From: Mauremys mutica
Lineage: Eukaryota > Chordata > Testudines > Geoemydidae
Assembly (NCBI RefSeq): GCF_020497125.1
Contig: NC_059080.1
Location: forward strand, 45,573,563 to 45,637,562
Length of the DNA: 64,000 nt
Direction of reading: 5' to 3'
The notes beneath the pieces were generated by a model. It did not search any database. It had not been told where the DNA came from and saw only the letters and a list, made by a program, of their open reading frames with translations. A program made the translations under genes and the position numbers. Of the stretch, positions 4,327-62,150 are shown piece after piece; within the stretch, counting starts at the first letter, position 1; each line of letters opens with the position of its first letter.

Positions 4327-5574
4327 TCAGTCCACTGAACTGCATTTGGTTATTTTTTCCTGGTTAGGTTTGTCACTGGGGTGGCAATTTGGCTGCACTT
4401 TGGTACAAATCATTGGTAATACCTGGCCAAGCCCAAGAAGGATTGGACCTGCTTCCTGGACCTTAGGGACAGGCCAATTTTTGATAGCATTTAGCTTAGC
4501 CTGTAGGGGGTTGATAGTACCTTGACCCACCTGGTGTCCAAGGTATGTTACCCTGTTTAGGCCTATTTGACACTTTTTGGCTTTAACGGTTAATCCTGCC
4601 TCCCTTATACGCTGGAAGACAGCTTGGAGGTGTTCTGCCCATGAATCTGAGAATATAGCCACATCAGCGAGGTAGGCGACTGCAAATTCCCCAAATCCAG
4701 CCAGAAGGTCATCTACCAGTCTCTGGAAGGTGGCGGATGCATTTCACAGTTCAAAAAGGAGCACATTAAATTAATACAGCCCTACATGGGTTATGAAGGC
4801 TGACCTTTTCTTGGCTGGGTCATCTAGCGGCACTTGCCAGTACCCCTTAGTTAAGTCTAAGGTGGAGATGAACTGGGCATGTCCCAGTTTCTCCAATAGC
4901 TGATCTGTGTGTGGCATTGGATAGTTTTGTGGGCGAGTTACAGCATTTAGCTTATGATAGTCCACACAAAAGCAGATTTCCCCATCTTGTTTGGGAACCA
5001 GAACCACTGGAGAGGCCCATGTACTCTCAGAGGGGCAGATTACACCCATCTGTAACATGTCCTTGATCTCCCTTTCTATTGTAGTTTTGGCCTGAGGAGC
5101 CATTCTAATTGGGCAAGCATCACCTGTGTCAATGGAGTGGTACGCCTGTTCTGTCCATCCTGGGGTGGCTGAAAACATTGATGCGAAGCTGGTGCAGAGC
5201 TCCTGGATTTGCTGTTGCTGCTTATGCCCAAGGATCTTGGAAAGTCTTACCTCTTCCACGCCACTGTTGCTTTTTCTGTCATAGTAGACTCCTTCAGACC
5301 ATTCACCGTCATCTCTCTCCTGGGCTGTAAACTGGAGAACCTTGATTTCTCGGGAATAAAAGGGCTTTAGAGAATTGACATGGTATACTTTAAGTTTTAG
5401 GGTAGGGTTTGGGAATGCTATGAGATAATTAACAGCTTCCAGGTGCTCTTGGACCATAAATGGCCCCTCCCACAATGCTTCCATCTTATTGGCCTGGAGC
5501 ACTTTTAGGACCCTGACGTGGTCACCTACTCTGAAGGAACGCTCTCCGGCATGTTTAAAAGAAAGAAAATACAC
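4327..5574 (-). pseudogene. Gypsy integrase C-terminus and reverse transcriptase remnant
   Basis: The longest antisense frame (5574-4771, 267 codons) starts in LTR-derived sequence. It then shows an integrase C-terminal module of GPF type (residues about 12-75, with GDHVRVL, WEGPFMV and VYHVNSLKPFY), a spacer, and the start of reverse transcriptase (about residue 165 on: WASPVVLVPKQDG, FCVDYHKLNAVT, TLDLTKGYWQVPL). The reverse transcriptase continues in other frames to about 4330 (EAGLTVKAKKCQIG, YLGHQVGQG). The catalytic box at about 4665-4676 reads Y-L-A-D instead of YxDD, so one catalytic aspartate is lost. Frameshifts and stops between 4770 and 4660 confirm a dead copy. Confidence 0.88.
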
Positions 5575-6704
5575 CTGGAACTTAGGCTTTTGCTAGATTT
5601 TAAAAGAGCAATTCCAAAAATCAAGCACCCAAAATAGCTTTCTTGGGCGTTCAGCTTAAAGCAGAGGTGGGCAAACTATAGCCCGGGGGCCACATCCAGC
5701 CCTTGAGATCCCGGCCGGGAAGGCTAACCCCCAGCCCCTCCCTGGTTGTCCCCCACTCCCCGTAGCCTCAGCTCGCTGTGCCGCCAGTGCTCTGGGCAGC
5801 AGGGTTGAGAGAGCCGCCTGCCTGCATGCCTGGCTCTGGCCGGGTGGCGCGGCTGCCAGTCCTGGTGCTCTGAGTGGCATTCTAAGGGAGCGGGGGGGGG
5901 GTGGGGGTTGGATAAGGGCAGGGAGTCCCGGGGGGCAGTCAGGGGACAGGGAGCAGGGGGTGGTTAATAGGCATGGGAGTCCCAGGGGGCCTGTCAGGGG
6001 GCAGGGGTGTGAATAGGGGGCAGGGGACAGAGAGCAGGGGAGGTTGGATGTGGGGGGTCCCGGAGGAATGGTCAGGGGACAAGGAGCAGGGGGAGGGGTT
6101 GGATGGGTCGGGAGTTCTGAGGGGGGGGCAGTCAGGGGAGGGGAAGTGAGAGGGGTCGGATAGGGGGCAGGGGCCAGGCTGTTTGGGGAGGCATAGCCTT
6201 CCCTACCCGGCCCTCCATACAGTTTTGGAACTCCAATGTGGCCCACAGGCCAAAATGTTTGCCCATCCCTGACTTAAAGGTTACAAGCAAACAAAAGCAT
6301 GTGGGGTTAGCACAGAGGAGTCCACAAGCCAATAAGAAATAACCCTAATTGCATCTAGTTAAACATTCTGATCTACTTACACATTTGGAGTTCAGATAAG
6401 TATTTCTAAGCATGATCTGATGATTTATAATCATACCTGGCTTAGCTGCTTATAGCATGGCTGCTCTGTCCCTCCAGCCCAGAGAACAACAAACAAAGGC
6501 AAAGTTTCTTTCCCAATTTTAAAAAGTTCTACCTTCTGATGGGCTCTTTTGGTCAGGTGCCCACATTTTTTTCTTTACCTGGGGGACTTTTTAACCCTTT
6601 ACAGGTGAAGCAAGTAAAGAACAGCTACCAAGAGGGATTTTACAGATAATTGGCTGGCTGGGTGTCCATCAAAGGGAGATACCCCCCCCACACACTTTAT
6701 CACA
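5561..6704 (-). repeat. partial 5' LTR of the Gypsy element, interrupted
   Basis: The first part of this LTR, equivalent to 2902-3285 of the other copy, was lost in the internal deletion. The remainder matches 3286-3661, plus about 150 bp (around 6340-6500) that the other LTR has lost. A hAT element at 5662-6271 interrupts it. The uninterrupted 3' LTR shows the empty target site. Confidence 0.85.
5662..6271. mobile_element. non-autonomous hAT element nested in the LTR
   Basis: Terminal inverted repeats cagaggtgggcaaac and gtttgcccatccctg bound a G-rich/C-rich interior of about 610 bp. Flanking 8-bp duplications are gcttaaag (5654-5661) and acttaaag (6272-6279), matching 7 of 8. The other LTR has a single 'gcttaaag' here, proving insertion. 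Long open frames in the interior come from GC-rich low-complexity sequence. Confidence 0.88.
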
Positions 6705-29775: not shown

Positions 29776-29980
29776 GTGTGGTCTAGTAGCTAAAGCGCTG
29801 GATGGGGACTCAAAGATATGGGTTCTAGTTCTCTTGCTGGGTGACCTCAGGTGAGTCACTTCCTCTCTCTGTGCCTCAGTTTCCTCATCTGTAAGATCAG
29901 GATAATGATGCTGACCTGCTTTGTAAAGCACTTGGAGATTGACTGATGACAAGTGCTACGTAAGAGCTAGGTGTTATCGC
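29776..29980 (+). mobile_element. MIR-like SINE, nearly full length
   Basis: The head is gtgtggtctagtagctaaag, the core is 'gtgcctcagtttcctcatct', and the tail is 'tttgtaaagcacttggagat' then 'gtaagagctaggtgttatc'. It is the best-preserved copy of the family in the window. Confidence 0.78.
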
Positions 29981-30604
29981 AGTGGGGATATGCCCCGAGG
30001 CTGAAATCACGGCAAATCACCTATGGAATGAAGGCAGAAGGAGGCCGCATTAGCTAGTGGCCAGTACAAAGAGACTGAGTGTCTAGGGGTATGTCTACAC
30101 TATGAAATTAGGTCGATTTTATAGAAGTCGATTTTTAGAAAGCGATTTTATACAGTCGATTGCGTATGTCCCCACTAAGTGCATTAAGTCGGTGGAGTGT
30201 GTCTTCACTAAAGTGGCTAGCATCAACTTACGGAGCGGTGCACTGTTGGTAGCTATCCCACAGTTCCCGCAGTCTCTGCCGCCAATTGGAATTCTGGGTT
30301 AAGCTCCCAATGCCTGATGGGGCAAAAACATTGTCACGGGTGGTTTTGGGTACATGTCATCAGTCACCCCTCCCTCCGTGAAAGCAACGGCAGACAATCA
30401 TTTTGTGCCTTTTTTCCTGGGTTACCCGTGCAGACACCATAGCACGGCAAGCATGGAGCCCACTTAGCTCACCGTCACCGCTGCTGTTGTGGGGAAGTCT
30501 ACTGTGGGGGCTGCTGTGAGCCAAGTAGCCAATGCAATCATTGACGTTCTGTTATCAAGGGTAGTGACTCTGGGAAATGTGCGGGCCTTTTTAAATTTTA
30601 AGTG

Positions 30605-31290
30605 CATCACGTTCCTGTCCTTAGTCACTGGGGAGGAAGTCTTGCAGCTGTACATTCCAGTCTGGTTGGCGCTATAACACCCCATAGCACTTCTGTGGTT
30701 GACACATGTAACAGCTCCAGGGCTCTTGCTCTTTTGCCTTGGCTGAGGTACCTTGCCCTACCAGGACCTCCAAGCATTCGACACAGAAGCACCTGCAGCA
30801 GCTGGCATTGCTACACAGCAGCAGCTCCTTGCCTTCGCAGCAGACGGTGCAGTGGGACTGGTACCCATCCTCATTGGACATGTAACTTGGCCGGGGGTTC
30901 TGGAAACATCTTCCCTGCCTGGCTCCTAGCAACCTCCAGGGCATGATGTACGGCTCCACCGCTTCCGCTGCAACTCTGCTCTCCTGCAACTCAGCTCTCC
31001 TGCTCCCCAGCGACAAGCTTGGGGGATCCATTCTGGTCCTCCTGGGTGCTGCTGGCAGACGTGGTACTGCTGCTCTGGGAGGACTCCTTGGAATCCTCCT
31101 CAGTGAGGTCGTTCAGGGGCTCCTGGACAGACATGGCCATCCTCCTCTTAGAGAACTGAATGGGAGCCAGAGACTCCAAGTCATTCTCTTCTTTAAGTTT
31201 CGTCTGATTGAATGGAGATTCAGTCCTGCCTGGAATATTATGCGAGCTGGAGGCTTCTGCCTCAGGCTGCTCTACCAGAGGGCAGCACCA
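30605..31290 (-). pseudogene. intronless DNMT3B-like fragment inside the Harbinger element
   Basis: The antisense frame 31031-30672 contains a cysteine-rich block ([15 protein letters not shown], then [15 protein letters not shown], then [17 protein letters not shown]). I recognise this as the ADD zinc-binding domain of DNA methyltransferase 3B. After a stop at about 30674 the match continues as PDWNVQLQDFLPSD. In the upstream overlapping frame, [18 protein letters not shown] resembles the end of the DNMT3B PWWP domain. Further upstream (31299-30991) [18 protein letters not shown] resembles its disordered N-terminal region. ADD reads histone H3 tails in the parent enzyme. The pieces lie together without introns, with most of PWWP and all of the methyltransferase domain missing and at least one frameshift and one stop. 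It is a dead fragment. The identification rests on memory, not a search. Confidence 0.75.
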
Positions 31291-31640
31291 TGTGGTCACA
31301 CCTACCCCAGACTATCCCTTGATCCCATGGCTCATGAAGTCTGGACAGTAGTAAGGAGCAGTTCAACTATAGGCTGAGCAAGTGCAGAATGGTGGTAGAA
31401 TGTGCCTTTGGATGTTTAAAAGCTCGCTGGTGCTGTTGGTCAGACCTCAGTGCAACCAACATTCCATTGTTATTTCTGCTTGCTGTGTGCTCCATAATAT
31501 CTCTGGGAGAGTAAGAGGGAGATGTTTATGACGAGGTGGGAGGTTGAGGCAAATCACCTGACATCCGATTTTGAGCAGCCAGACACTAGGGTGATTTGAA
31601 GAGCACAGCAAGGCGTGCTGTGCATCAGAGAGGCTTTGAA
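31290..31640 (+). pseudogene. Harbinger transposase C-terminal remnant
   Basis: Read with frameshifts, the plus strand gives a TYPRLSLDP segment and then FNYRLSKCRMVVECAFGCLK. The second motif, with its N-x-R-L-S and V-E-x-A-F-G elements, is the hallmark of the last DDE block of PIF/Harbinger transposases. An LKARW and IPLLFLLAVCSI tail follows. The final acidic residue region is recognisable, but the frame carries stops and a frameshift near 31330-31370. In an intact element this enzyme would bind the ends and cut and paste the DNA. Confidence 0.8.
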
Positions 31641-31953
31641 AACCAGTTTCATGATGGGCCAGGCTTCAGTGTGACAGTTGTGTGTATTTCTCCTTTGTTG
31701 ATTTTAATTCCCTGCAAGCCAACCACCCTTCCCCCTTCAAAATAAAGTAACTATTGTTTTGAAACCATGCATTCTTTATTAATTACAAAAAAAATTTAGA
31801 TAACGGACAAGGTAGCCCGGGTGGGGGAGGAAGGAAGGAGAAGGCCACATTGCTTATTGTAGCCACACTAAAAATCAAACTGTTTGAATGACAGCCTTCT
31901 GTTGCTTGGGCCATCCTCTGGAGGGGAGTGGCTGGGTGCCTGGAGCCTCCCCC

Positions 31954-32230
31954 TCACATTCTTGGGCATCTGGGTGAGGAGGCTATGGAACATGGGGAGG
32001 AGGATAGGCGGTTATACAGTGGATGCAGCGGGGGTCTGTGCTCTTCTTGGCTTTCCTGCAGCCCCAACAGACGCTTCATCATGTCCGTTTGCTCCCCCAT
32101 TAGCCTCAGTATCGTGTCCTGCCTCCGCTCTTCGCACTCACTTAATTCTTTCCTGGCCTCTGCCACGGAATGCCTCTATGCATTAAGCTGTATCCTATCA
32201 GTGCGGGAGGACTGCATGAGCTTGGAAAAC
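31954..32230 (-). pseudogene. Harbinger Myb-like accessory protein, C-terminal remnant
   Basis: The antisense frame gives a Glu/Arg-rich coiled segment (ARKELSECEERRQDTILRLM, then MMKRLLGLQESQEEHRPPL) followed by a Ser/Pro-rich end. I associate this with the C-terminus of the Myb/SANT-domain protein carried by turtle Harbinger elements. The N-terminal DNA-binding domain is missing. Confidence 0.65.
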
Positions 32231-32734
32231 ATGTCATCGCGAATGCGTTTTTTTTGCCTTCTAATCTGCGATAACCTCAGGGACGGAAGTGATAAGGGGA
32301 CTGTAGAAACATTCTATGCTCTACGATTCTGGGAAGACTGCATGGTCACCAGTGCTGCAGAGTTCACCACGCTGACCAAACAGGAAATGAAATTAAAAAG
32401 TTCCCAGGGCTTTTCCTGTGTACCTGGCCAGTGCATCGGAGTTCAAAGTGCTGTCCATAGTGGTCACAATGGAGCACTCTGGGATAGCTTCCGGCGGACA
32501 ATACTGTCAATTTGCATTCGCACTACCCCAAATTCGACGTAGCAAGGTTGATTTTAGCGCTACTCCCCTCATTGGGGAGGAGTACAGAAGTCTATTTTAA
32601 GAGCCCTTTAGGTCGACGGCACAGGGTTGGTTGTGTGGATGCAGTCATTTTTAAATCGACCTAACGCGGCTAAATTTGACCTAACCCCATAGTGTAGACC
32701 AGGCCTAGGAAACCTCATCTTATTTCTGCCAATA

Positions 32735-32860
32735 GCTTGTCCTGGCACTTTGGGTAAGTCATTTGCCTTCTCTATGCCTCAGTTTCCCCATCTATAGTAC
32801 TGGCCTAGCTTTGTAAAGTGTTTTGAGATTGGCAAGGTGAGGCTCTATCAGTGGTACTGT
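32735..32860 (+). mobile_element. MIR-like SINE core and tail fragment
   Basis: The text 'tttgggtaagtcatttgcct', 'atgcctcagtttccccatct' and 'tttgtaaagtgttttgagat' gives the core and tail; the tRNA head is absent. It adjoins the right end of the Harbinger element, which may have inserted into an older SINE: the nearly full-length SINE at 29776-29980 lies on the other side. Confidence 0.6.
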
Positions 32861-37958: not shown

Positions 37959-38173
37959 TACATAAGAATATAAGAATGGCCGCACTGGGTCAGACCAAAG
38001 GTCCATCTAGCCCAGTATCCTGTCTACCGACAGTGGCCAATGGCAGGTGCCCCAGAGGGAGTGAACCTAACAGATAATGATCAAGTGATCTCTCTCCTGC
38101 CATCCATCTCCACCCTCTGACAAACAGAGGCTAGGGACACCATTCCTTACCTGTCCTGGCTAATAGCCATGAA

Positions 38174-38528
38174 CAGGGGCGGCTCTAGGAATTGCACCGC
38201 CCCAAGCAGGGCGGCACGCCGTGGGGGGCGCTCTGGCGGTCGCCGGTCCCGCGGCTCCGGTGGACCTCCTGCAGACGTGCCTGCGGAGTGTCCGCTGGTC
38301 CCGTGGCTCTGGTGGACCTCCTGCAGACGTGACTGCGGAGGGTCCGCTGGTCCCGCGGCTCCGGTGGACCTCCCGCAGGCACGCCTGCGGATGCTCCACC
38401 GGAGCCGTGGGACCAGCGGACCCTCCGCAGGCATGCCTGCGGGAGGTCCACCGGAGCCGCCTGCCACCCTCCCGCGGCACGCCGCCCCAAGCACGCGCTT
38501 GGCGCGCTGGGGTCTGGAGCCGGCCCTG
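38174..38528. mobile_element. hAT-type miniature element with internal repeats
   Basis: The ends are caggggcggctctagg and 'ctggagccggccctg'. An exact 8-bp duplication gccatgaa flanks it (38166-38173 and 38529-38536) within the CR1 3' region. The interior holds roughly three direct copies of a unit of about 60 bp ('tccgctggtcccgcggctcc'), followed by inverted copies, so it can fold strongly. The same family occurs at 57789 and 61285. Confidence 0.93.
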
Positions 38529-38536
38529 GCCATGAA

Positions 38537-41494: not shown

Positions 41495-42206
41495 GTGCTC
41501 CTCTGCAGCAGTCGACTTTCCCCCATCTCCTAGTTTAAAAACTGCTCTGCAACCTTTTTAATGTTAAGTGCCAGCAGTGTGGTTCCACTTTGGTTTAGGT
41601 GGAGCCCATCCTTCCTGTATAGGCTCCCCCTATCCCAAAAGTTTCTCCAATTCCTAATGAATCTAAACCCCTCCTCTCTCACCATCGTCTCATCCACGCT
41701 TTGAGACTCTGAAGCTCTGCCTGCCTATCTGGCCCTGCAGGTGGAACTGGGAGCATTTCTGAGAATGCCACCATAGAGGTCTTGGATTTCAGTCTCTTCC
41801 TTAGCAGCCTAAATTTGGCCACCAGGACGTCTCTCCTACCCTTCCCTATGTCATTGGTACCTACATGTACCATGACCACCGGCTCCTCCCCAGCACTACA
41901 CATAAGTCTATCCAGATGCCTTGAGAGATCTGCAACCTTTGCACCAGGCAGGCAAGTCACCATACGGTTCTCCTGCTCATCACAAATCCAACTATTTATG
42001 TTTCTAATGATCGAATCTCCCATTACTAACACCTGCCTTTTCCTAGTAACTGGTGTTCCCTCCCCTGGAGAGGTAACCTCAGTGCGAGAGGATACCCCAA
42101 CACCATCTGGAAGGAGGATCCCAACTATGGGAAGGTTTCCTTCTCTCGTAGACTGCTCTGCTTCCCTGGGCCTTTCATCCTCCTCAACAGCGCAGGGGCT
42201 GTCTGA

Positions 42207-45050
42207 AGAACTACGAAGAACTAGATGCTCTGCTATCATCAGTTCACCGCACAGACAAGCTGATCCTGCTTGGTGATTTTAATGCAAGAGTCGGATGCGA
42301 TGCCACAGCCTGGGAAGGAGTCATCGGGAAAAATGGAGTGGGAAAGTGTAACAGCAATGGTCTGTTACTGCTGAAAACTTGTGCAGCACATGACCTTCTG
42401 ATCACCAATACGGTCTTCTGCCTCCCTACCCGTAACAGGACTTCGTGGATGCATCCCCGTTCCAAGCACTGGCATCTGATCGACTATGTCATCATCAGGA
42501 GAAGGGACAGACAAGATGTCAGGGTTACAAAAGCTATGTGCGGCGCTGACTGCTGGACGGATCACAGGCTCATAGTATCTAAAATGAAGCTCCGTATGAT
42601 GCCGAAGAGACGACCACAAGGCTGTAAGGCTCTCAAAAGGATCAACGTGTTGAAGCTGAAGAACAGCCGCATCACTGAAAATCTAGCAGAAGACCTAGAG
42701 AATGAGCTTGCTGATCTTCGTATTGAGGATGACGCTGAGAGAGACTGGGAGCGATTCCGCAACACTGTCCATACAGCTGCATCGAAGGTATTGGGGCCCT
42801 CCACATGCAGGCGGCAAGACTGGTTTGATGAAAATGATGCAGAAATCCAGGCCTTACTTGCTGAGAAGCACCGCCTGCATCGCGCATATCAGAACGATCC
42901 ATCCTCAGCGGCAAAGAAGACTGCCTTTATCAACGCTCGCAGAACAGTACAGAACCGACTGTGCAAAATGCGGGACTTGTGGCTGAGCGCCAAAGCAGAT
43001 GAAATACAGGCGTACGCGGACAGGAACGACTATAAGCAGTTCTATGAAGCCCTCAACACGCTCTATGGTCCACAGTCTTCTGGGAGCTTTCCCCTCCTGA
43101 AGTCTGATGGCATTGTGCTCCTTACAGAGAAGACGCAGATTCTCCAGAGATGGGCTGAACATTTTGAAGCAGTTCTCAACTGCCCCTCGTCATCAATGAT
43201 GAGGCCATTGACAAGATGCCCCAGGTTGCAGTCAATGACTCCATGGATGCTTCACCAGAAGAGGATGAAGTGAAGAAAGCCATCAACCAGCTGTCAAGTG
43301 GCAAATCCCCAGGGTCAGATGCCATACCAGCAGAGGTGTACAAAGTCGGTGGACCCGTGCTGCTACGGAAACTCACTGAGCTGTTTCAGTCCTTCTGGAA
43401 GCAGGGATCCATTCCACAGGAATTTAGAGACGCGTCCATTGTGCACCTCTATAAGAGGAAGGGCAGTCGCCAGGTATGCGACAATCACCGTGGAATCTTG
43501 CTGCTCTCTACAGCGGGGAAAGTTCTTGCACGGGTTTTGTTGAACCGACTGATCACTCACCTGGAGCAGGGCTTACTGCCAGAATCACAGTGCGGCTTCC
43601 GCAAGGGGCGTGGGACAATTGACATGATCTTCGCTGCGCGTCAGCTACAGGAGAAATGTCAAGAGCAGAACCGTGAACTCTACACAACTTTTGTGGACCT
43701 CACGAAAGCGTTCGACTCTGTCAGTCGCCAGGGCCTGTGGAGGATCATGTCGAAATTCGGCTGTCCAGACCGGTTCATACGAAAGGTACGTCAATTTCAT
43801 CACGGTATGATGGCTCGTGTCCTGGATAACAGTGAAACATCTGAGGCCTTCCCAGTCACCAACGGCGTCAAGCAAGGGTGTGTTTTAGCACCCACTTTGT
43901 TTAGCATGATATTCTCTGCCACTTTGACTGATGCCTTTCAACACTGCACTGAAGGAGTAGGCCTGAAGTACAGAACCGATGGGAAACTATTCAATCTGAG
44001 GCGACTGCGTGCCATCACCAAGGTGAAGGAAACTGTACTTCGAGACTTTCTCTTTGCCGATGACTGTGCTCTGAATGCTAGTACAGAGCCAGAAATGCAA
44101 GCCAGTATGGACAAGTTTTCATCTGCATGCAACAACTTCGGCCTCACCATTAACATCAAGAAGACTGAGGTAATGCACCAGCCAGCTCCCCATACTCTGT
44201 ACTCAGAACCGTCCATCACTGTAAATGGACAGAGACTTCAGGCAGTGGACCACTTCACGTACCTGGGCAGTACCCTTTCTCGAGCAGTGTCAATCGATGA
44301 TGAAGTAAAGTGCAGAATTGCTAAAACCAGCTCTGCATTTGGCCGATTGCGCTCCAATGTCTGGGAATGTCGAGGGATCAGCCTACCGACGAGGCTGAAG
44401 GTCTACTGAGCAGTGGTGCTTCCAACTCTGCTGTACGCCTGCGAGACGTGGACTGTCTATCGGAGTCATGCACGAAGGGTCAATCATTTCCACATTTCCT
44501 GTCTGCGAAAGCTTCTGAAAATCAGATGGCAGGACAAAGTGCCCGATACTGAAGTCCTTATCAGAGCCAGTCTGCCGTCAGTTCACACACTGCTGATGAG
44601 AGCCCAGACCAGATGGGCCGGACATGTCGTGAGAATGTCAGACGAGCGCATTCCTAAACAGCTCTTCTACGGAGAATTCGCCCAGGGAAAGCGCTCCCAC
44701 GGAGGACAAAAGAAGCGGTTCAAGGACACGCTGAAGACCTCTCTGAAGTCCCTTGAGATTAACACCGCCACATGGGAAACCCTCGCACTGAACCGTCCAG
44801 CATGGCGCAGCCTCATTCACATAGGCAGTAATACCTCTGAGGCGAGGCGTACTGCTGAGGCTGAAAGAAAGCGAGCTGCGCAAGTCCAGAGCTGCCCGCA
44901 CATCATCGACAGTGCCATCACATGTCTGCCCGACGTGTGACAGGACGTTCCATGCCCGAATCGGACTGATCAGTCATCTTCGGACGGACAGAATCCGGTC
45001 ATCGAAAGAATGAGTTGTTGAGGTCTTCGTCGACAACGATGGATGAACAT
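42207..45050 (+). mobile_element. RTE-like non-LTR retrotransposon, 5'-truncated
   Basis: A 31-bp target duplication at 42176-42206 and 45051-45081 flanks 2.84 kb of unrelated plus-strand LINE sequence inside CR1 ORF1. The element starts in the middle of an endonuclease domain, so its 5' end is missing. It ends shortly after a coding stop at 45012, with an AT-poor tail rich in 'gatgaacatcat'. There is no poly(A). The two duplications look identical by eye, suggesting a fairly recent insertion relative to its host CR1. Confidence 0.92.
42210..45012 (+). pseudogene. RTE-like endonuclease-reverse transcriptase with C-terminal C2H2 finger
   Basis: The frame at about 42210-43190 encodes the C-terminal half of an apurinic-type endonuclease ([37 protein letters not shown]) and a basic linker. 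After a one-base frameshift near 43193, the reverse transcriptase spans 43216-44409 (AINQLSSGKSPGSDAIPAE, TFVDLTKAFDSVSRQGLW, GVKQGCVLAPTLFSMIF, and the catalytic FADDCAL). A stop (tga) interrupts at 44407-44409. The same frame then resumes with VLPTLLYACETWTVYRSHAR and RAQTRWAGHVVRM. A last frameshift near 44925 leads to a finger, CPTCDRTFHARIGLISHLRT, ending at a stop at 45012. I place it near RTE-type LINEs; the exact clade is uncertain. Three lesions only, so it decayed little. Confidence 0.85.
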
Positions 45051-57788: not shown

Positions 57789-58131
57789 CATGGGTGGCTC
57801 TAGACATTTCGCTGCCCCAAGCACGGCGGCGTGCCGCGGGGGACGCTCTGCCGGTCACTGGGAGGGTAGTTTTTCCACCCCAGATGGGACTTGAACCCAC
57901 AATCTCTGACTTAGAAAGCCATTGCCTTGTCTATTAGGGGGTGGCAGGCGGCTCCAGTGGACCTCCCGCAGGCATGCCTGTGGAGGGTCCGCTGGTCCCG
58001 CAGCTTTGGTGGCACGGCTGGGGGAGGTCCACCGGAGCCGCCTGCCGCCCTCTCGGTGACCGGCAGAGCGCCCCCCGTGGCATGCCGCCCCAAGCATGCA
58101 CTTGGCATGCTGGGGCCTGGAGCCACCCCTG
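57789..58131. mobile_element. hAT-type miniature element, middle member of the nest
   Basis: The ends are catgggtggctctag and 'ctggagccacccctg', the same family as 38174 and 61285. Flanks gcggcagc and acggtagc agree at 6 of 8. Unlike the other copies it carries a tRNA-like insert at about 57867-57947. Confidence 0.75.
57876..57947 (-). pseudogene. tRNA-Arg-like pseudogene (anticodon TCT)
   Basis: Read antisense, the D-arm text 'cctaatagacaaggc', the anticodon arm 'tggctttctaagtcag' and the T arm 'gattgtgggttcaagtccca' follow tRNA-Arg. The anticodon of the loop tttctaa is TCT, and the body is closest to my memory of tRNA-Arg-CCT. The 5' acceptor strand is not recognisable, while the 3' strand 'tctggggtg' is kept and is followed by 'gaaaaacta'. 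Other copies of the surrounding element lack it, so it was inserted there. Confidence 0.65.
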
Positions 58132-61201: not shown

Positions 61202-61284
61202 GGGATGTGGGCTCTGGGGTGGGGCTGAGGATGAGGGGTTTGTGGTGTGGGAGGGGGATCTGGAGTGGGGCAGGGGATTGGAGT

Positions 61285-61640
61285 CAGGGGCGGCTCTAGG
61301 AATTCCGCCTCCCCAAGCAGAGCGGTGCGCCGCGGGGCGCGCTCTGGCGGTCGCCCGTCCCGCGGCTCCGGGGGAACTCTTGTAGACGTGCCTGCGGAGG
61401 GTCCGCTGGTCCTGCGGCTCTGGTGGACCTCCCGCAGGCATGCCTGCGGATGCTCCACCGGAGCCGCGGGACCAGCGGACCCTCCTCAGGCATTTCTGCA
61501 GGAGGTCCACCGGGGTTGCAGGACCAGCGGACCCTCCGCAGTCATGCCTGTGGGAGGTCCGCCGGAGCCGCCTGCCGCCCTGCTGGCAAAATGCCGCCCC
61601 AAGCACGCGCTTGGCGCGCTGGGGTCTGGAGCCAGCCCTG
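61285..61640. mobile_element. hAT-type miniature element with internal repeats
   Basis: The ends are caggggcggctctagg and 'ctggagccagccctg'. The 8-bp duplication attggagt is exact at 61277-61284 and 61641-61648. It is a close relative of the copy at 38174-38528, with the same direct-then-inverted internal repeats. Confidence 0.94.
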
Positions 61641-62150
61641 ATTGGAGTGGAGGGTCTGGGAGAGAGTTTGGGTGCAGGAGGGGACTCCGGGCTGGGGCAG
61701 GGGGTTGGTGTGTAGGAGGGGGCTCAGGACCAGGACATGGGGCTGGGGTGGGAGGGGTGTGGGGTCCCAGCGGCACTTACAGCGGCTTCCAGGAAGCGGC
61801 TGCCAGTTCCCTGCAGCCCCTAGGCACATGAGCAGCCAGGAAGGCTCCATGGTGCTGCCCTAGCACCCGCAGGCTCCGCCTCCAAAGCTCCCATTGGTTG
61901 CAGTTCCCAGCCAATGGGAACTGCAGAGCCAGCACTCGGGGCAGGGGCAGCGCGGTGGTGTCTCCCTGGCTGCCCATGTGCCTAGGAGCTGCGTGGTGCT
62001 AGGGCTGGCAGGGAGCCTGCCTTAGCCTTGGGCCCCCGCTGCGCCGCCAACTGGACTTTTAACGGCCCAGTTGGCAGTGCCGACCGGAGCACCCAAGGTC
62101 CCTTTTCAATGGGGCATTCTGGTTGAAAATCAGACTTCTTGCAACCCTAT

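Follow-up and report, generated by a model that had tools for sequence, protein, structure and literature searches.

A spliced DNMT3B fragment carried by a multicopy PIF/Harbinger-type transposon family in the turtle Mauremys mutica

The stretch of Mauremys mutica DNA analyzed here (64,000 nucleotides, hereafter "the window") contains a transposon with terminal inverted repeats (TIRs) that is very probably one copy of a non-autonomous PIF/Harbinger-type Pack-TIR family. In the founder of this family, part of the transposase was replaced by an antisense, spliced and internally deleted fragment of DNMT3B cDNA, and the resulting element multiplied by transposition. That one cDNA capture founded a large family follows from the spliced structure of the block, the junctions shared between copies, the copy counts, and the breakpoints seen in gene models of the green and loggerhead turtles. 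The features of the element and its cargo are listed in Table 1.

Table 1. Features of the DNMT3B-carrying element, in window coordinates.
Feature	Position	Strand	Basis and remarks
Harbinger-type TIR element carrying the DNMT3B block	30087..32705	+	TIR pair; both ends placed in 32 of 39 sister copies
Target-site duplication TAG, left copy	30084..30086	.	Sequence
Target-site duplication TAG, right copy	32706..32708	.	Sequence
Left terminal inverted repeat	30093..30121	+	29 nt, 83% complementary to 32671-32699
Right terminal inverted repeat	32671..32699	-	Pairs with 30093-30121
Transposase remnant, P0149 residues 1-46	30354..30491	+	tblastn, 76% identity
Transposase remnant, P0149 residues 189-224	30489..30596	+	tblastn, 83% identity
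Captured DNMT3B cDNA block	30591..31302	-	Similarity to DNMT3B; sister copies with the same junctions; edges known to within a few bases
Part C: ADD domain from its second half on, up to DAPKI; three exons fused with loss of the introns	30594..30884	-	88.7% identity over 97 aa with DNMT3B of Mauremys reevesii (P0026)
Part B: end of PWWP region (two exons joined without intron), then PPAK	30886..30954	-	DNMT3B comparison
Part A: N-terminal region, GAAGWESSLRQ to VAGEVVE	30955..31302	-	Frameshifted and with stops in the window copy
Transposase remnant, C-terminal, P0149 residues ~327 to 456	31304..31671	+	tblastn in several frames, E ~1e-39; DDE_Tnp_4 positions 102-134
Second Harbinger ORF remnant	31954..32313	-	Open frames; no Pfam match; putatively Myb/SANT-type

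The Element and its Transposase Remnants

An earlier note on this DNA had outlined a TIR-bounded element at 30087-32705. The same ends were found here, with TAG on each side, and within the window the TIR pattern occurs only at these two ends. Assignment to the PIF/Harbinger type is based on the TIRs, on target-site duplications (TSDs) of 3 bp (TTA, TAA, TCA, and others, imperfect in 14 of 32 copies), and on a DDE_Tnp_4 transposase that is present as a remnant only and has some relatives with the source name HARBI1. The Harbinger transposase remnant reported in the earlier note stands: it is recognized by Pfam (DDE_Tnp_4, E 2e-6), and pieces of the element are 76–83% identical to P0149, a turtle transposase of 456 aa that served as the tblastn reference, in three of its alignments. 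The Myb-like label of the same note was not confirmed, with no Pfam Myb match in three degraded frames, 31954-32175 (-), 32176-32313 (-), and 31892-32542 (+); the open frames at 31954-32313 may be what is left of the second Harbinger ORF, putatively of the Myb/SANT type.

Residues 47–188 of P0149 are absent from the element. The DNMT3B block stands in place of approximately 100 transposase residues (~225–322 of P0149), with transposase sequence on both sides, and it is antisense to the transposase in the window. The left edge of the C-terminal remnant is uncertain, as the alignments begin at either 31292 or 31313. Many related elements in the same genome have an unbroken transposase and no DNMT3B block, as would be expected of a capture. 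Among the transposase relatives in this genome, 93 were scored out of 38558 candidates and about twenty are listed without an internal stop; these stop-free relatives are 69–75% identical to P0149, and the nearest ones listed (up to 83%) have stops.

Further repeats were noted in the window. Two alike SINE pieces, which we take to be MIR-like, lie on either side of the element (29850-29941 and 32753-32831). The open frames at 42152-44406 (+) form a fairly intact non-LTR retrotransposon stretch with an endonuclease match (E 6e-5, below the curated cut-off) and an RVT_1 match (E 6e-34). Weak reverse transcriptase, Tf2-type, and integrase C-terminal matches at 4774-5592 (-), with E-values of 1e-5 to 3e-4 that are all below cut-off, perhaps mark the remnant of an LTR-type retroelement. 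Lastly, three related repeats are imperfect self-palindromes (38168-38534, 57789-58131, and 61284-61641), with a match of ~70% along the entire length for two and of 87% within the core 38305-38458. They are candidates for non-autonomous elements of the hairpin type.

A Spliced and Internally Deleted DNMT3B Fragment

The antisense Cys-rich ADD-type peptide of 23 letters and the adjoining PDWNVQLQDF on which the earlier note had built its case are present with all quoted words. The block it had placed at 30605..31290 is indeed similar to DNMT3B, but the similarity extends wider, from ~30591 to ~31302. The frame 31112-30672 (-) was matched to the ADD domain of human DNMT3B over 71 aa (E 6e-36) and to the Pfam family DNMT3_ADD_GATA1-like (E 2e-25). 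A protein search had been proposed as a check of the DNMT3B identity; in the large database, the best matches to the block were turtle DNMT3B-like models, and those to a long query, which already contained turtle letters, were turtle DNMT3B genes. The window block agrees with Mauremys DNMT3B at 172 of 194 comparable residues and contains stops and frameshifts. As expected, no relatives of the block were detected in the viral contigs and prokaryote genome contigs searched. A protein tree was calculated from the block, the DNMT3B-like protein P0001 of Caretta caretta, and 18 DNMT3B proteins, leaving out P0002 and P0003 (too partial) and four near-identical turtle rows; the block groups with P0001 (91% support), but the tree does not place this pair (41%).

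Compared to turtle DNMT3B, parts A, B, and C of the block are colinear, following each other in mRNA order, and the PWWP core, the linker, and the first half of the ADD domain are absent. Both limits of the missing stretch, from PPAK to YM, lie inside exons, and its loss is therefore a deletion and not exon skipping.

The host DNMT3B gene, an identifiable parental copy with introns, was located on C13. In this gene the exon ending CCR and the exon starting CFC are ~1.3 kb apart, the GQEY and DAPKI exons ~0.77 kb, and the two exons united in part B ~1.4 kb; all three pairs are contiguous in the block, which thus lacks three host-gene introns (1.4, 1.3, and 0.77 kb). Like a transcript, the block is spliced, in keeping with the proposal of the earlier note that a piece of a DNMT3B transcript had been trapped. 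Among 22 short ORFs from other contigs, the match ends at these same exon edges, GQEY in 16 and CCR in four, and runs on across a gap in the remaining two.

Copies of the Family in the M. mutica Genome

A search of the M. mutica genome (genome paper: PMC9098631) with the block yielded 2046 candidates. The best 40 were scored, all of them matching; these copies (the window and 39 others) are thus the best-scoring ones and no random sample, and they favor the type found in the window. Each of the 39 further copies carries DNMT3B part C inside the same element at the same place, and alignment of these copies to the window runs in a single orientation across both element and block. The match to DNMT3B stops at residue 524 (DAPKI) in 34 of them and at 517–536 in the other five. 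Both element ends could be placed in 32 copies, the remaining seven being without a placed end; a perfect 3-bp TSD flanks 18 of these 32 and is lacking in 14. In copy L019 the perfect TSD lies inside a CT repeat. The 40 copies represent 35–36 sites, as five are segmental duplicates with common flanks and a further pair has 94 bp in common. The five, L015, L021, L025, L037, and L041 on contig C5, have flank stretches that are 95–99% identical and go back to segmental duplication of one insertion.

Genome-wide, the left capture junction was matched 115 times (58 and 57 by strand, reversed control 0) and the right junction 637 times (342 and 295 by strand, control 1), numbers that count copies and not insertions because some junction matches are segmental duplicates. 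The left pattern comprised 27 bases with up to 3 mismatches and is passed by 34 of the 39 fetched copies, so that divergent copies are missed. The right pattern is passed by only four of the 39 and has 4 mismatches in the window; the right-junction part was lost in the subfamily to which most fetched copies belong. Four places with an exact right junction were fetched in addition. All four carry DNMT3B part A at the junction, three of them contain scrambled further DNMT3B pieces, and the left junction is absent from all four within the 1.15 kb read. Two fetched stretches of the parent gene are at least 10 mismatches away from both the left and the right junction pattern. Spread of the fragment by the element, as suggested in the earlier note, is thus borne out by the left-junction matches and by the fetched copies: far from being absent from all related elements, the insert was found in every one of the 39.

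In L010, two elements of the family, each with pieces of DNMT3B, stand head to head at a distance of ~0.7 kb. Transcribed together, this pair could form double-stranded RNA.

Structural Types, Age, and Relatives in Other Turtles

Two structural types dominate the 40 copies. The fuller type comprises the window and L009-L012, with L034 and L045 showing a further deletion. In the major type, filler from other portions of the DNMT3B block occupies the place of 31059-31331, a patchwork that we infer to be what template switching during gap repair leaves. Mean divergence of the copies from their majority sequence is 5.6%, or 3.5% without CpG sites. If turtle rates are slow, as we assume, the family would date back tens of millions of years. 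Of 291 positions, 13 distinguish the majority sequence itself from the host gene, with 10 codons changed synonymously and three not, one of the latter to a stop.

DNMT3B-like gene models of other turtles resemble the family. P0002 from Chelonia mydas begins with YMSDEDG and ends with DAPKI, as the family does. The Caretta P0001, an open frame of 184 aa with an ADD domain, starts near the same join before AVHH, shares FPEPPAK, ends with DAPKM, and keeps the linker. P0003 from Trachemys also shares FPEPPAK and keeps the PWWP region. Compared as gene-model proteins alone, the three form a series that suggests stepwise internal loss from one spliced ancestor. Moreover, part A of the family (compared in L009-L012, L034, L045, and L050-L053) agrees with DNMT3B of the snapping turtle in having H in NLH and in a loss of four residues, both of which are missing in Mauremys and in tortoises; three other snapping-turtle states do not occur in it. 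This likeness may reflect ancestral states, chance, or horizontal transfer.

Origin of the Insertion and Alternative Explanations

For the entry of the fragment we lean slightly toward a scenario in which a break, or the gap left by an abortive excision, in a Harbinger element was filled by template switching with sequence from DNMT3B cDNA or from an already existing retrocopy of the gene. Later rounds of this process would have produced the internal deletions and patched variants, and full-length relatives in the same genome could have supplied the transposase in trans. This entry step is one that we infer, and insertion by a LINE reverse transcriptase would likewise leave intronless DNA. A single Harbinger copy might have received a processed DNMT3B pseudogene from a LINE enzyme and multiplied afterwards; this would change the entry only and leave the spread as it is. 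Such a route, which we consider tenable but rather doubtful, would explain the intronless block, and the Trachemys model with its retained PWWP region and its unusual FPEPPAK join fits an older, longer retrocopy. However, ~100 residues (~300 bp) of the target are missing and not just interrupted, and the fragment, which is without poly(A), breaks off after five codons of an exon (DAPKI). Inspection by eye of the window and of the copy alignments revealed neither a poly(A) or LINE-type tail nor any obvious duplication flanking the block. That the DNMT3B piece is a repeat in its own right, or a segmental duplication, and sits in the element by coincidence could be read from the five copies derived from one site, but this possibility is refuted by the flanks: all 39 further copies lie within element sequence, 32 of them with both ends, and 35–36 sites are represented. 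We give it virtually no chance.

Two proposals concern a function of the captured fragment. The first, a small ADD protein encoded by the block and maintained by selection in certain copies or in the source elements, is highly improbable. The open frame with an ADD domain in Caretta would agree with such a protein, as would the uneven changes in part C of the 40 copies, which amount to 0.055, 0.041, and 0.066 by codon position (p 1e-5) and to 0.033, 0.028, and 0.043 without CpG sites (p 0.001), with nonsynonymous changes at 0.78 of expectation relative to synonymous ones. But this deficit is small, and the changes are not independent owing to shared ancestry; the copies are near neutral, and a deficit of this size could result from shared ancestry or from weakly constrained source elements. 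Furthermore, with gaps ignored, at least one stop interrupts part C in 35 of the 40 copies and only five are free of stops, the majority sequence itself has a stop, and the window copy has stops and frameshifts. Most copies now appear to be near-neutral relics. The other proposal is that the fragment is used as RNA. Transcripts of the transposase strand would, hypothetically, carry antisense DNMT3B RNA, and an action of antisense RNA on DNMT3B is possible. Small RNAs fed by the antisense strand in the transposase transcript might lower DNMT3B and thereby ease silencing of the element, comparable to miR820 versus OsDRM2 in rice, for which a precedent has been reported (PMC3459959); we regard this as unlikely. 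The orientation of the block in the window and the uniform alignment of the copies would suit such a role, and each of the 40 copies has a perfect match of at least 32 nt to the 291-nt part C of the DNMT3B cDNA, which makes antisense action feasible but not likely. On the other hand, antisense orientation has a one-in-two chance, and RNA of the block folds only mildly better than shuffled sequences (z -2.2, 20 shuffles). An extended form of this idea, to which we attach little credence, would be that antisense transcripts or piRNAs from more than 100 copies lowered germline DNMT3B and helped the family to spread, as an independent animal counterpart of the rice miR820/OsDRM2 system. It is linked to the notion that the family entered pond turtles from an americhelydian turtle, as part A shares two snapping-turtle states that are absent from the host gene.

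Comparison to Known Systems

Capture of gene fragments and their amplification by a TIR element is known from the Pack-MULEs of plants, which differ from the DNMT3B family in belonging to the Mutator superfamily and in their plant hosts. Processed pseudogenes and other retrocopies are likewise intronless copies of an mRNA, but the DNMT3B block is without poly(A), is cut at both ends, lacks a segment of its target, and was spread by a DNA transposon. In Caenorhabditis elegans, the DNA transposon family Turmoil-1 is reported to contain coding fragments of host genes (PMC2572040); these differ in being situated in the terminal repeats, in a nematode, and in deriving from other genes. Rice CACTA elements with miR820 are described as the source of a miRNA against the de novo methyltransferase gene OsDRM2 (PMC3459959). 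In rice the miRNA itself has been reported, whereas the turtle family is known from its anatomy only.

The closest resemblance in architecture is to the animal Pack-TIRs surveyed by Tan et al. (2021; PMC8277862), which are TIR DNA transposons with a foreign gene segment between their halves, some of them multiplied with distinct TSDs. According to this survey, 370 Pack-TIRs exist in 100 genomes; 323 are hAT or TcMariner elements and four are multicopy. The words "Harbinger" and "turtle" do not occur in its main text. Here, in contrast, the piece is spliced, the element is of the PIF/Harbinger type, and the left junction alone has 115 matches. Like a Pack-TIR, the family has a foreign gene between TIR ends, an identifiable parental copy, and copies at different sites with their own TSDs. 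Captures that lack the introns of a multi-exon parent gene were discarded in the survey (Tan et al., 2021; PMC8277862); the block thus lies outside its operational definition, and the filter would have dropped it. In its workings, the DNMT3B family nonetheless resembles a multicopy Pack-TIR. A description of a DNMT3B-Harbinger family in turtles was not found among the titles and abstract openings of the literature searched; repeat libraries outside that search, for example Repbase, may hold an unremarked consensus. The family stands out among Pack-TIRs as spliced, Harbinger-type, high-copy, and derived from a de novo methyltransferase gene.

Implications

A vertebrate TIR transposon can carry and multiply spliced host mRNA sequence. 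As intronless cases were filtered from the main survey, such captures may be more common than thought. For turtle genomics, the DNMT3B-like gene models P0001-P0003 may be transposon cargo, and repeats could contaminate the DNMT3B read counts of studies on turtles, among them work on temperature-dependent sex determination. The DNMT3B enzyme helps to silence jumping elements. With a gene for a silencing enzyme as the captured sequence, the idea of a transposon counter-defense becomes testable in an animal.
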